Shown here: piece by piece, positions 4,349-26,359 of the stretch
How the letters are laid out: the number at the start of each line of letters is the position of its first letter
Position numbering within the stretch: position 1 is the stretch's first letter
NCBI GenBank assembly: GCA_030041215.1
Contig: JASHOH010000177.1
Coordinates: 1 to 32,447, forward strand
Length of the DNA: 32,447 nucleotides
Origin: Candidatus Sulfotelmatobacter sp.
GTDB taxonomy: Bacteria > Acidobacteriota > Terriglobia > Terriglobales > Acidobacteriaceae
Direction of reading: 5' to 3'
Position numbers and translations under genes: made by a program
The notes under the pieces: generated by a model
The model's input: the letters and a program-made list of their open reading frames with translations, nothing else
Database searches by the model: none
Told to the model about the DNA's origin: nothing

Positions 4349-5545
4349 CTAGTCTCGTTCTACGGCCATTGCTACCGCGTTGCCTCCGCCTAAGCACAGG
4401 GCTGCGATGCCGCGCTTCACGTTACGGCGGGCCATCTCGTAAATCAGAGTCACCAGAATGCGCGCGCCGCTGGCGCCGATGGGATGGCCGATGGCGACTG
4501 CGCCGCCATTCACGTTGACTTTGCTCATATCCAGCCCCAGCTCGCGGATAACGCCCAGCGCCTGCACTGAAAAGGCTTCGTTAAGTTCGTAGAGATCGAC
4601 ATCTTCATTCTTCCAGCCCGTCTTCTTCCAGATTTGGCGGACGGCGTCGACGGGAGCCATCATTACCCACTTGGGCTCGACGCCGCTGGTCGCCTGGGCG
4701 ACGATTCGCACCATCGGCTGCGCACCAAGCTCTTTTGCACGTGATGCGCTTGTGACGACCACGGCCGCGGCGCCATCGTTTACACCTGGAGCATTGCCCG
4801 CCGTCACGGTTCCATCTTTCTTAAATGCGGGCTTGAGCGAACGCAGGGTTTCGGCGGTCGTGTCTTCGCGCGGAGACTCGTCTTTATCGAAGATCACCGG
4901 CGCTGCGCCTTTCTTCTTCGCAGGGATCTCGACGGGAACGATTTGAGATTTGAAGCGGCACTCTTTGATGGCGGCCACGGCTTTGCGATGGGAGTTGACC
5001 GCGAACTCATCTTGCTCTTCGCGAGTGATGCCGTACTTTTCCGCTACGTTCTCACCCGTGATGCCCATGTGGTAGTCGTTGTAGACATCCCACAGCCCGT
5101 CATGAACCATCGAGTCGATGACTTGGCCGTTGCCCAAACGATACCCTTTGCGAGCCTGCGGCAGAAGATAAGGAGCATTGGTCATCGACTCCATGCCGCC
5201 AGCCACGACGACCGAGCTGTTGCCGGTTTGAATCGCCTGCGCGGCGAGCGCGACTGCTTTCAATCCTGAGCCGCAGACCTTGTTGATTGTCATGGCACCT
5301 GTGGCGGGAGACAATCCTCCGAATATGGCGGCCTGGCGCGCAGGATTTTGTCCGAGTCCAGCGCTGACCACGTTGCCCATGATGCACTCGTCGACTTGTT
5401 CGGGATTGATGCCGGCACGCTTTACGGCTTCGCGCACCACGATCGCGCCGAGCTGTGGCGCGGTGAAATCAGTGAGACTTCCCTGAAATTTTCCTACCGC
5501 TGTACGACAACCGGAAATGATGACCACATCATCGAAAGCCGCCAT
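4349..5545 (-). CDS. Acetyl-CoA C-acetyltransferase (thiolase)
   Basis: A 398-residue biosynthetic-type thiolase that condenses two acetyl-CoA to acetoacetyl-CoA or runs the reverse thiolysis; cytoplasmic. The N-terminal half has the acyl-carrying Cys91 in [11 protein letters not shown]. The C-terminal half has [10 protein letters not shown] with His354 and the second catalytic Cys384 in [12 protein letters not shown]. The start [18 protein letters not shown] is typical of the AtoB/PhaA group. GGGAG lies upstream of the ATG at 5545. The gene stands alone, with no beta-oxidation or PHB genes beside it, so the physiological direction cannot be told from context. All catalytic residues are present. 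Confidence 0.95.
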
Positions 5546-5823
5546 AGATCATGCTCCCGCGAGATTTCGCCACTGCCATTATAGATGCGCGGACGTTAAA
5601 AATGATCTGGAAGGTAAGACTTGCATGGGATGCGTTCGTAAGAAATCGTATCGGGAGCGGCTGCTCGTTTTCGACGAAGAGAACTATCGTTGACGATTTA
5701 AGTTTTGCGGTTGCTGCGTTGTGAAATTCGTCGCGAACAAAAAGTTCTTGACTTTTCTTCTTCACTTTCATCGTTCGGGTGACTTTGGTACAACAACGCT
5801 TGTTCACAACGTACATTTTTTTC
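5546..5823. other. AT-rich intergenic region upstream of the small lysine-rich ORF
   Basis: No gene is visible in about 280 bases. The segment 5690-5823 is clearly more AT-rich than the surrounding genes. It holds a second TTGACT (5751-5756) without a matching -10 at 17 bp. It probably carries upstream promoter or regulatory sequence for the unit starting at 5824. Confidence 0.4.
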
Positions 5824-5852
5824 TTGACTTCATTTTTCATTGACTCTATACA
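5824..5852 (+). promoter_or_regulatory. Strong sigma-70-type promoter of the small lysine-rich ORF
   Basis: TTGACT at 5824-5829 and TATACA at 5847-5852 are separated by exactly 17 bp. The surrounding DNA is AT-rich. Predicted transcription start is near 5859. Confidence 0.75.
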
Positions 5853-5920
5853 ATCAAGTAGTTGCAACAAAACATCGTTGCAGAATTTTCCATGAAGAAT
5901 GGAAGGGAGAATAGAAACCA

Positions 5921-5962
5921 ATGGCAACCAAGAAAAAGGCAAAGAAGAAAAAGAAGCACTAA
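5921..5962 (+). CDS. 13-residue lysine-rich peptide (putative small protein)
   Basis: ATG to TAA encodes MATKKKAKKKKKH: nine of 13 residues are lysine. I do not recognise a characterised family. Support for a real gene comes from its surroundings: a near-consensus promoter at 5824-5852, a leader of about 62 bases with a purine-rich GGAAGGGAG 11 or so bases before the ATG, and a perfect intrinsic terminator 19 bases after the stop. The whole predicted transcript is only about 150 nt. The peptide would be extremely basic and could bind nucleic acid or ribosomes, but that is inference from charge alone. Alternatively the transcript is a small RNA and the ORF is incidental. Confidence 0.55.
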   Translation: MATKKKAKKKKKH

Positions 5963-5981
5963 CGAGGTGTACGAAGTCAAA

Positions 5982-6012
5982 GGGGGACGCAGAGAGCGTC
6001 CCCCAATTTTTT
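5982..6012 (+). terminator. Perfect rho-independent terminator after the lysine-rich ORF
   Basis: A 9-bp perfect stem, GGGGGACGC (5982-5990) with GCGTCCCCC (5996-6004), and loop AGAGA are followed by AATTTTTT. On the opposite strand the hairpin lacks a good U-tract, so it serves the + strand unit, not the helicase gene ending at 6050. Confidence 0.92.
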
Positions 6013-6049: not shown

Positions 6050-9037
6050 TCAGTGCGCAGTTTGCGTTCGCGTTCGATTTTGCCTCTTCGAAATATTTGG
6101 AAGCATCTTCTCCTGTGCCGGGCACAATCCGCTAAACGCGCAGAAGCTGCAGTGATAGCCGGTTTTCGGTTTGAAGTTCGCGGCGGCAATGCCATTCACG
6201 ACTTTCATGACGCGCTCGCGCGCATCCTCCAGTTGGAACTCAGTGCGTCGCGAAGAAACAGGCACGTTGCCCTCAAGATTGTGGAAGACCAGTTCGCTGA
6301 CGCGATATCCCCACTTCTCGCGCGCGGCCATGGCGTAGATGGAAAGCTGCAAGCTTTCGTCCGCATCTTCCTGTGACCGCGCTTTGCCGGTTTTGTAGTC
6401 AATGATTCGCGCGCTGCCATCAGGCGCCCGGTCAATGCGGTCGATTCGCCCCGCCACTTTCGTCCCAGCAATTTGAAAATCGAACCATCCCTCTGTGTGC
6501 AGGACTTCGGGCGCAGGAGCGGAACGCGCCGCAGCGAGAAATTCGCGCAACTGCTCTAACCCCTGCTTAAGATACAAGCTGCGCTGATAATCATCCTCGA
6601 TTGCCATCATGCCCGGATCTTCCGCGAACAATCTCAGCAGCTCGTCGTCGCTCTTCGGGCGCCGATGCCGGGCGGAATCATAATACGTAAGCAGCACGCG
6701 ATGCATGGCCGCACCATACTGCATGGCGGCGCTGACTTCGTGCGCCAGCTTCCACTCGCGCTCGAACTTGAATTGCAACGGGCAGGTTTCGTAAGTTTCG
6801 ATGGTACTGGCACTGAGTTGCGCGCCCAGCCCGTCAGTCGGCGCAAGTTCAAGCCACGCCAGCAAATGCGAACCATCACACTGCACCGGCTCTGCAACTG
6901 CCGCAATTTCTATCAATTCGGCTTGCAAGGGCAACGCCGAGCGCGATCTGAGCCATGGTTGCAGCGGGTGGTTCGTCATCAGTTCGCGCATATAACCCGC
7001 GGGAGTTTTATCGCGCCCGAGCCCCTGCCGTCCGTAAATGTGCAAGGAGTCTTTCGCGCGCGTCATGGCGACGTAAAAAAGCCGGCGCTCTTCCTGATCG
7101 TGAAGCATCTTGTCGTCGCTGGCGCTAGCCGAGTCAGGGTCGAGTAAGTCCCGCGGAAACTCCACAAGCATTTCACGATAGGCAACCGGGAACGACCCGC
7201 TGGTTGCGCGCAGAATGAACACATGCGGGAATTCGAGCCCCTTCGCTCCATGCGCAGTCATCAGACGTACGGCGTCTTCATCGTCATTCGAGGGCAGCGG
7301 AATGACTCCTCCAGCCTCGCGAAAATACTCCAGGTGCTCCACCCATTCGCGAAGATCTTTGTTCTTGCTGGTTGGCTTTTCTTCCCAGCCAGCGGCAAAG
7401 TTCAGGGCGGCTTGCAATGCGAAGGAATCGAGATCAAGCTGAAACTTCGTTGCAACTAATTCCATAGCCTCACGCGCCGATGCACTTCTCCGCTGGATTT
7501 CTTCGCGCGCCTGATGCACACATTCCAAAACGGCGTGCCCACCTGGAACTGTGTCAAGCACCGTAGCAAGCGGCGCGACTTTCCCATCTTTTTCCTTCGA
7601 TTCGCGAGCGATTGCGCGCAGCGCGATACGAAGCTGCTGGGGATCAACATCAAACTGCGGCAGCGCCGCCACGCGAAACAGATCGGCATCCGATGTCAGA
7701 TCAACCACGACCGAGACACAAGCGAAAAGATCACGCACCTCAGGCGTCTTGCTTACATCCATGTTCTCAATCGAGAAGGGAATCTGCCGCTCAGCCAGCA
7801 GCCGCACGACTTCGTCACGATTGGTGTGCGAGCGGTAGAGAATGGCGAAATCTTTCCACCTGCAATGCCGCCGGCGCCTGGTTTGCTCGATCACGCTCAC
7901 CACATCGGGCGACTCAGCGTCCTTGCCGCTGAACGCAACGGCTTCGACGGGAACGGAAGCCAACGAAGTCCCGTTCTTCCTCGCTTCCTCCTCGCGTGCC
8001 GATTCGAGCGGAGTGCGTTGGTAACCAATTGAACCACGCTCGTTCCTTCTAAACACGGGAGGGTTCTTATCGATCAGGGCGAAAGCGCATTGCAGAATCG
8101 GCGTGGTCGAGCGGCGGTTCTTGCCTAGCACCACCAGTTTGCTCGCGGGGAATTGCCGTCGAAACAACTGAAAAGCCGCACTGGAGGCGCCGCGAAAACG
8201 ATAGATCGATTGATCGGGATCGCCGACGCCGAAGACGTTGGCTTCAGGTCCGGCAAGCGCGGCGAGAATCTTGACCTGCGCAAAATTGGCGTCCTGAAAT
8301 TCGTCAACAAGAATGAAGCGTGCCCGCGCGCGCTCGGCGGCGAGTATTTTGGAATCGGATGTGAGAAGCGCATGAGCGCCGGTAATCATGTGGCTGAATG
8401 TTCCCAGGTTTTCTTCGCGCAGCCAGCGTTCAGTCATCTCGAAGACCCGAGCAATCTCCCGGCAGCGACCGATGACTTCCACATCGCTCAAGTGGTCTTT
8501 CGATTTCGCCACGCGGGGAATTTGCACTTCTCCGCGCTGCAGCCGGTCCACGTATGCGGCATACTTTTCTGGCATCACCAGCTCGTCATGGCAGCGGCTG
8601 AGAAAGTCGAGCAAACTTTTGAGAAACTGGCCGACGTTGGCCGCGCGAACGTAATACTGCAGATGAAACTCGTGGATTCTTTTGCGCAGGTAAATCCAGA
8701 GATCGGTCTCGTCGAGCACGTCGAAACCCTTGCCAGTACGCTTCAGCAAGCCATTGCAGTAATCGTGAAATGTGGCCGCGTGAATGTCCTTGCGAACGAG
8801 CGCCCGGACGCGACTTCGCATTTCATTGGCCGCGGCAACGGTGTACGTGAGGGCAATTACTTCATCAGGCTTGGCATGCCCCTCAGCAATGAGCCGGGCG
8901 ATGCGATGAATCAGGACGGATGTTTTTCCTGTGCCCGCGCCCGCAATTACGAGCATCGGGCCGTGAACGTGCTCAATCGCCTCGCGCTGGCGCTCGTCGG
9001 CAAGGAACGGTTGAGATGGCGGCTTGGGGAGGGGCAT
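6050..9037 (-). CDS. UvrD/AddA-type helicase fused to a RecB-type PD-(D/E)XK nuclease with Cys cluster
   Basis: A 995-residue SF1 DNA helicase-nuclease, probably acting in double-strand break processing. Helicase motifs in order: Q17, Walker A GAGTGKT (33-39), ALTYTVAAANEM, Walker B FILVDEFQD, motif III GVGDPDQSIYRFRGA, motif V TAHGAKGLEFPHVFI and motif VI YVAMTRAKDSLHIYGR. The nuclease part begins near 739 with LSASTIETYETCPLQFKFE and contains GRIDRID...IIDYKTGK near 860-885, the metal-binding Asp and Asp-X-Lys. One Cys in TCPLQF and three in CSFCAFSGLC (C-x2-C-x5-C, about 962-971) match the arrangement that holds a 4Fe-4S cluster in AddB-like nucleases. Both activities are in one chain, and no addA/addB or recC partner is adjacent. 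The ATG at 9037 has only a weak Shine-Dalgarno. Confidence 0.92.
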   Translation of the reverse strand: MPLPKPPSQPFLADERQREAIEHVHGPMLVIAGAGTGKTSVLIHRIARLIAEGHAKPDEVIALTYTVAAANEMRSRVRALVRKDIHAATFHDYCNGLLKRTGKGFDVLDETDLWIYLRKRIHEFHLQYYVRAANVGQFLKSLLDFLSRCHDELVMPEKYAAYVDRLQRGEVQIPRVAKSKDHLSDVEVIGRCREIARVFEMTERWLREENLGTFSHMITGAHALLTSDSKILAAERARARFILVDEFQDANFAQVKILAALAGPEANVFGVGDPDQSIYRFRGASSAAFQLFRRQFPASKLVVLGKNRRSTTPILQCAFALIDKNPPVFRRNERGSIGYQRTPLESAREEEARKNGTSLASVPVEAVAFSGKDAESPDVVSVIEQTRRRRHCRWKDFAILYRSHTNRDEVVRLLAERQIPFSIENMDVSKTPEVRDLFACVSVVVDLTSDADLFRVAALPQFDVDPQQLRIALRAIARESKEKDGKVAPLATVLDTVPGGHAVLECVHQAREEIQRRSASAREAMELVATKFQLDLDSFALQAALNFAAGWEEKPTSKNKDLREWVEHLEYFREAGGVIPLPSNDDEDAVRLMTAHGAKGLEFPHVFILRATSGSFPVAYREMLVEFPRDLLDPDSASASDDKMLHDQEERRLFYVAMTRAKDSLHIYGRQGLGRDKTPAGYMRELMTNHPLQPWLRSRSALPLQAELIEIAAVAEPVQCDGSHLLAWLELAPTDGLGAQLSASTIETYETCPLQFKFEREWKLAHEVSAAMQYGAAMHRVLLTYYDSARHRRPKSDDELLRLFAEDPGMMAIEDDYQRSLYLKQGLEQLREFLAAARSAPAPEVLHTEGWFDFQIAGTKVAGRIDRIDRAPDGSARIIDYKTGKARSQEDADESLQLSIYAMAAREKWGYRVSELVFHNLEGNVPVSSRRTEFQLEDARERVMKVVNGIAAANFKPKTGYHCSFCAFSGLCPAQEKMLPNISKRQNRTRTQTAH

Positions 9038-26236: not shown

Positions 26237-26267
26237 CTCCTACAAACCGATCCGAATTTTGTAGGAG
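26237..26267 (-). promoter_or_regulatory. Shine-Dalgarno-sequestering hairpin (riboswitch expression platform)
   Basis: On the reverse strand CTCCTACA (26267-26260), the conserved 3' end of the aptamer, can pair perfectly over 8 bp with TGTAGGAG (26244-26237), which contains the crcB Shine-Dalgarno. No U-tract follows, so control is probably at translation initiation, with fluoride freeing the site. Confidence 0.8.
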
Positions 26268-26319
26268 TTATCAGCCTTGGGCAAACCGGCCGCAGGCGGT
26301 TATGGCGAACTCCATCGCC
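26260..26319 (-). promoter_or_regulatory. Fluoride riboswitch (crcB motif)
   Basis: The reverse strand reads GGCGATGGAGTTCGCC, then ATAACCGCC, a short stem (GCCT...AGGC) and GGCTGATAACTCCTACA, the crcB-motif consensus. Stem GGCG/CGCC is closed by a loop whose GGAGTT pairs with downstream AACTCC to form the expected pseudoknot. It is directly upstream of crcB. Confidence 0.93.
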
Positions 26320-26359
26320 GTAATTATTCTTATCATGAAAGTGGGGTGATTACGATGGC

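Follow-up and report, generated by a model that had tools for sequence, protein, structure and literature searches.

The window, that is, the whole stretch of 32,447 nucleotides of Candidatus Sulfotelmatobacter sp. DNA analysed here, contains what is apparently an unannotated tiny gene of soil Acidobacteria. Direct reading of the plus strand between 5824 and 6012 located its features as the original prediction had claimed. A sigma-70-type promoter (5824-5852) consists of a -35 box TTGACT (5824-5829), a 17-bp spacer and a -10 box TATACA (5847-5852). Promoter type and spacing were thus confirmed, but the boxes are not "near-perfect", as had been claimed, with five of six consensus matches at -35 and four of six at -10. 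An automated promoter scan of the window listed none at the locus because it demands a T at -10 position 6. Downstream of the promoter lie leader hairpin 1 (5862-5883), near the predicted 5′ end, and leader hairpin 2 (5886-5906), both recognised from the fold and from paired changes, followed by the leader motif AAGGGAGAATAG (5903-5914), which includes the likely Shine-Dalgarno sequence GGAG. The ORF extends from the ATG at 5921 to the TAA at 5962 and encodes the 13-aa peptide MATKKKAKKKKKH, which is lysine-rich as predicted but contains eight lysines instead of nine. It is followed by the intrinsic terminator GGGGGACGC-AGAGA-GCGTCCCCC-AATTTTTT (5982-6012), whose 9-bp stem (5982-6004; eight G-C pairs, loop of five), AA and six T's (6007-6012) agree with the earlier description. 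G-C-rich hairpins comparable to this terminator were seen by eye 3′ of the ORF in other genera.

The predicted RNA (5858-6012) had a folding energy of -41.2 kcal/mol (z -4.74), and none of 200 dinucleotide shuffles was equally stable. Its fold is composed of the two leader hairpins and the terminator, with the ORF mainly open. An Rfam search of the locus in the window and of six related loci yielded no family at gathering score, only two sub-threshold matches (E 1.3 and 5).

In the window, the gene is flanked by a divergent thiolase gene (4349-5545) and a convergent gene for a UvrD-type helicase/PD-(D/E)XK nuclease (6050-9037). Across 95 loci with flanks of unequal length, the thiolase cluster was divergent upstream in 66, and 45 had the helicase-nuclease cluster on the minus strand further downstream. 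A short ORF followed by a terminator, at a conserved position next to the thiolase gene, might be read as a leader peptide or attenuator by which an adjacent gene is controlled. However, with the thiolase divergent and the helicase-nuclease convergent there is no same-strand operon downstream in the window, and the gene downstream differs among the other loci, some of which have a plus-strand frame there. Gene orientation led us to reject leader-peptide attenuation, which we regard as scarcely credible.

A conserved motif further upstream, GTGACTTTGGTACAAC (5779-5794, no strand assigned), is a candidate operator. Its match begins 45-47 nt upstream of the -35 box in 35 of 36 genus loci, and it is a possible operator of either the peptide gene or the divergent thiolase gene, as the distance from the thiolase to the promoter is also narrow (268-290 nt in 35 loci). 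A palindrome-like TGACTTTGGTGTCA is present in some relatives. As a separate observation, the window carries a fluoride riboswitch (crcB motif, RF01734) on the minus strand at 26255-26328 (58.7 bits; gathering score: 34).

The gene is conserved in the genus. Absence of the ORF or hairpin from close relatives would have argued against it, but with a 221-nt DNA query we found matches of 83-95% identity in 35 of the 36 other genus genomes (one of the matches, in G025, is cut at a contig end). Outside the genus, the same query matched 1 of 24 genomes, and weakly. When the 36 genus loci including that of the window were aligned, promoter, leader, ORF and terminator stood out from diverged flanks, so that the gene's own promoter and terminator are present and conserved as sequence signals. 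TTGAC was unchanged in all 36 loci; it likewise showed no variation across a mixed alignment (A1) of 37 rows, which had been trimmed to begin at a TTGA[CGA] match.

All but one of the 36 genus ORFs encode MATKKKAKKKKKH, the remaining peptide being one residue shorter. Comparison of synonymous and non-synonymous change, which the original prediction had proposed, favoured the peptide: in the 35 ORFs, stop codon included, the variable sites numbered 0, 0 and 8 at the first, second and third codon position, and we therefore conclude that the peptide is selected. The lysine codons were quiet, with a single codon at four of the eight ORF positions vs none of the 17 Lys columns that are conserved in the neighbouring thiolase gene (35 loci). 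The corresponding single-codon columns were 1/2 vs 1/46 for Ala, 0/1 vs 2/14 for Thr and 0/1 vs 1/3 for His, positions that are too few to show frozen codons clearly and do not settle the matter. Quiet codons beside the start codon may reflect initiation.

Beyond the genus, the pattern AAGGGAGAATAG-N2-6-ATGGC was found in 51 of 399 class genomes, and its reversed control in one. At least one of the 51 is different, as the match in G041 (family f2) lies in a 181-aa frame without lysine richness and was rejected as a homologue. A covariance model built from promoter and leader matched 165 of 200 family genomes (E≤0.001) and 73 of 79 genera, mostly in one copy, and gave no match in 35 of the 200 at this threshold. 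In a phylum sample, 36 of 396 genomes matched (E≤0.01), every one in the same family; one homologue outside the family, MAKKPAKKAAKKKK, was found in G051 (family f3). Among named genomes, a stricter exact pattern yielded at least 80 loci. Among the matches listed, 74 have acidobacterial titles and all of these carry lysine-rich ORFs of 12-30 aa, the six non-acidobacterial loci are frames of 63 aa or more, and the identical 13-mer occurs in four records titled Candidatus Sulfotelmatobacter (L184, L210, L218 and L222).

Covariation in the leader, a further point raised by the original prediction, was found in both hairpins. In a covariance alignment of 96 loci, which were selected from the matches and are not a random sample, and with the alignment fitted to the structure and hence leaning towards it, nine of ten scored leader pairs were changed on both sides (0/500 shuffles as high) and 96.1% of cells were paired, vs 21-47% in slid controls. 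Hairpin 1 contributed changes on both sides in five of six pairs (96.0% of cells paired) and hairpin 2 in four of four scored pairs (96.2%). With a 23-row MAFFT alignment, four of the ten pairs were changed on both sides (hairpin 1: 3/6; hairpin 2: 1/4). RNAalifold found no consensus structure in the first mixed alignment (A1), which was superseded by a better-registered alignment and the covariance model. The segment AGGGAGAATAG was present in 91 of the 96 model-aligned loci, 28 of these loci having been found via the motif itself. The genus matches, the family-wide covariance-model matches and the hairpin covariation rule out chance signals.

According to a script tally, the Lys/Ala-rich ORF is intact, with a length of 12-30 aa, in 95 of the 96 model-aligned loci and is cut by a contig end in the remaining one. 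An ORF of up to 37 aa was also seen in 18 of 20 weaker loci (L424 was read by eye), and none in the other two. Excluding the first Met, the 96 peptides consist of 55.5% K, 28% A and 7% T, with His, Pro, Gly, Ser and Val among the remainder and 0.1% Arg; D, E, F, W and Y are absent from all 96. The peptides drift from MATKKKAKKKKKH via MATKKAAKKATKKAAKKTAKKK to KPAA-like repeats, as in L410 (32 aa) and L428 (37 aa), and this drift indicates that charge and low complexity are kept and no fixed sequence. Pfam returned no family at E≤1 for four members of 24-30 aa, a PDB sequence search no match for one 30-aa member, and the titles and abstract beginnings among the literature matches listed no description of the peptide or the RNA. 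Because it occurs in 73 of the 79 sampled genera and matches no Rfam or Pfam family, the gene is a plausible core component of its family.

Small ribosomal proteins were recognised late, and gene callers missed some of them, such as bTHX. A clade-specific ribosomal or rRNA-binding peptide, like bTHX, bS22 or bL37, would agree with the size and charge of our peptide and with its family-wide, mostly single-copy occurrence, and the available part of one report gives a precedent of unidentified ribosomal proteins (PMC5876184). The variation in length (12-37 aa), the Lys/Ala composition with almost no Arg, the PDB result for the 30-aa member and the lack of the lysine ORF in one group of genomes (g22, described below) speak against this explanation, and we consider it improbable.

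The gene also has a paralogue encoding nearly the same peptide. In the window's own genome, two further loci (G000:C204 and C240) match over the ORF only. Both are members of a second gene type, which combines a TTGACA-17-CAATAT promoter, another leader, the Shine-Dalgarno sequence GGAGG and another terminator, and encodes MATKKKAKKKK(K)H. A 311-nt query from it matched all 41 genus genomes, with a long match in 35 and one confined to the shared ORF in six, and a motif search (≤3 mismatches) gave matches in 30 of 150 family genomes. We fetched 29 of the latter loci and found a short lysine-rich ORF in 24 and none in five. Overall, the second gene was represented by 54 fetched loci with 48 distinct sequences and peptides of 12-17 aa such as MPAKKKAKKKKKH. 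We conclude that the locus in the window is very likely a peptide gene, because its ORF is under purifying selection as a protein and recurs in a paralogous gene. This supports the first of the two alternatives that the original prediction had offered, a peptide gene or a functional RNA.

Of 30 genus loci examined for the second gene, 27 contain the segment AAGGGARAATCG; it lies upstream of a separate Shine-Dalgarno sequence there and for that reason probably does more than mark a ribosome-binding site. Genome-wide, AAGGGARAATMG showed no clear enrichment (nine sites vs four for the reversed control), and we rejected a regulon defined by it. RNAalifold predicted only three pairs in the alignment of the second gene (type B), and we therefore claim no structure for the type B leader. 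In five loci (L039-L041, L043 and L044), the second gene is seemingly divergent from a candidate hydantoinase B family gene, the start of which was read by eye.

The second alternative, a functional RNA, gained support from homologues that keep a conserved RNA without the lysine-rich ORF. In genus g22, a locus beside the thiolase gene was recognised by eye that has promoter, hairpins and terminator and lacks the ORF. A BLAST query from this locus matched 27 of 28 g22 genomes, and none of the 27 loci has a lysine-rich frame (at least 30% Lys and at least 9 aa) from ATG, GTG, TTG or CTG; one of them (L403) also lacks hairpin 2. An 18-nt segment, GGGAGCGCAGGCAAACGC, is invariant in all 27 loci, with no synonymous change. 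It is followed by AGGCAAAGC in 25 of 27 loci and then by AAGGCAACAC (24/27) or TGGCAACAC (3/27). An alternative frame through the invariant segment reads GAQANA behind ATG (11 of 27 loci), TTG (13) or TCG (3); it is not lysine-rich and diverges via 1-nt indels, and its start directly follows hairpin 2, no Shine-Dalgarno sequence being apparent. We think that this frame is probably untranslated because its third positions are invariant too and because of its start directly behind the hairpin.

Model R1 missed both g22 genomes tried (E≤0.1) and found 11 more loci without a lysine-rich ORF, in nine genomes of g24, one of g162 and one of g20, with E-values between 4×10−5 and 0.1 (7 of 11 only 0.01-0.1). 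AGGGAGARTA is kept in all 11 of these loci and in none of the 27 of g22. Each of the 38 loci without the lysine ORF has a leader stem (≥5 pairs) and a terminator-like stem (≥8 pairs). AGGCAA occurs in 37 of these 38. Among the 95 loci with the ORF, 33 have it in the 3′ UTR, vs 1.4 expected from shuffles. Where AGGCAA lies upstream of the terminator (L142, L144, L076 and other A3 loci), it accompanies 25 of 38 peptides of at least 19 aa vs 8 of 57 shorter ones. In the g22 RNA (L381-L407), repeated GGCAA units form a U-poor, apparently unpaired segment that is a candidate pairing or protein-binding region.

These homologues, the AGGCAA motifs in the 3′ UTRs and the quiet Lys codons could be taken to mean that the gene makes a non-coding small RNA alone, in whose unpaired, AAG/GCA-rich part the lysine ORF arose by accident. 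We judge this to be highly improbable, as variation in the genus is confined to third positions, the frame is kept across length changes from 12 to 37 aa (95/96 and 18/20 loci), an independent gene encodes the same peptide, and five amino acids are missing from all 96 peptides.

In a tree of the thiolase, the 20 usable loci without the ORF were nested among ORF-bearing rows, with a minimum of one change and a branch support of 41. We do not claim repeated loss of the ORF, because one change of state suffices in this tree and the tree covers 20 of the 38 loci. Loss appears likelier than gain, since the homologue outside the family (G051) has the ORF. The loci without it could be decaying relics.

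Relics, or genes for some other short peptide, would indeed be expected if the gene were an ordinary small mRNA, with the peptide as its sole product, hairpins that stabilise the message and a leader that optimises translation. Coding selection agrees with this, as do the frame, intact in all but one of 96 loci, the paralogue, which retains the peptide and not the leader, and the ATG- or TTG-headed short frame in 24 of 27 g22 loci. However, a relic should lose the 18-nt segment, which is unchanged in g22 even at third positions before 1-nt indels set in, and AGGGAGARTA is kept in the 11 other loci. An ordinary mRNA therefore seems unlikely to us.

Since g22 and the 11 other loci keep the RNA without the lysine ORF, we prefer a dual-function RNA, combining a polycationic micropeptide resembling a histone H1 tail with a role at the RNA level, over a simple small mRNA, and assign it a probability of roughly 0.6. 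The stand-alone small gene, kept through one acidobacterial family, would be expressed as an RNA of ~155 nt that comprises two covarying 5′ hairpins, the AAGGGAGAATAG segment, an ORF of 12-37 aa and the intrinsic terminator. Where the ORF is present, its translation would yield a free polycation, disordered and built of lysine and small residues. This peptide would resemble the C-terminal tail of histone H1 in detached form and may bind the cell's polyanions (DNA, RNA or polyphosphate) by electrostatic attraction. A second role, independent of the ORF, would belong to the RNA itself, which some lineages would have kept after losing the lysine ORF. In the simplest case the RNA would be a trans-acting small RNA with AGGCAA-type motifs in an unpaired segment.

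In dual-function RNAs, the contributions of RNA and peptide are usually difficult to tell apart, and lineages with the RNA and without the lysine ORF offer a natural experiment for doing so. With somewhat less than even confidence, we propose that coding and RNA functions have become naturally separated, one genus keeping the RNA without the lysine peptide and the paralogue keeping the peptide with another leader, in a family-wide dual-function RNA, and that the peptide it encodes may be the smallest H1-tail-like peptide to exist on its own. For a protein that is conserved, 12-13 residues is a very small size. Should the peptide prove to pack DNA, RNA or polyphosphate, it would represent a minimal H1-tail-like polycation that can be synthesized. 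Soils are rich in Acidobacteria, and to our knowledge only a small number of the small RNAs and micropeptides of these bacteria have been characterised.

Known systems share single aspects of the proposed gene. The available parts of two reports describe SgrS/SgrT and VcdRP as short transcripts with an RNA function and an ORF, of 43 aa for SgrT and 29 aa for VcdP, and attribute a conserved genomic context and a terminator to SgrS (PMC4021124, PMC8672173). Our gene likewise would combine a small ORF with an RNA function on a short transcript. In contrast to both, its peptide is a Lys/Ala polycation and its ORF directly follows the 5′ hairpins; no homology is expected. The peptide would share its small size with bL37 and bS22, ribosomal proteins that came to light late and one clade at a time; it is nearly Arg-free and repetitive and has no evident sequence similarity to them.

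The peptide itself is best compared with the KPAA repeats of AlgP and PhaF and with histone H1-like tails. The available part of the AlgP report describes a disordered KPAA C-terminal domain, binding of KPAA peptides to DNA in vitro and a requirement of AlgP for even spacing of polyphosphate granules (PMC9239181). Lys/Ala/Pro low-complexity repeats of variable number recur in our gene family, L410 reading MAAAKKPAAKKAAPKKAAAKKPAAKKPAAKKR, and by this analogy we predict the peptide to be a DNA-binding H1-like polycation. AlgP, as described there, joins an N-terminal helical domain to a C-terminal domain of 195 aa; in contrast, an additional N-terminal domain is absent here, and the tail-like stretch makes up the entire product of 12-37 aa.
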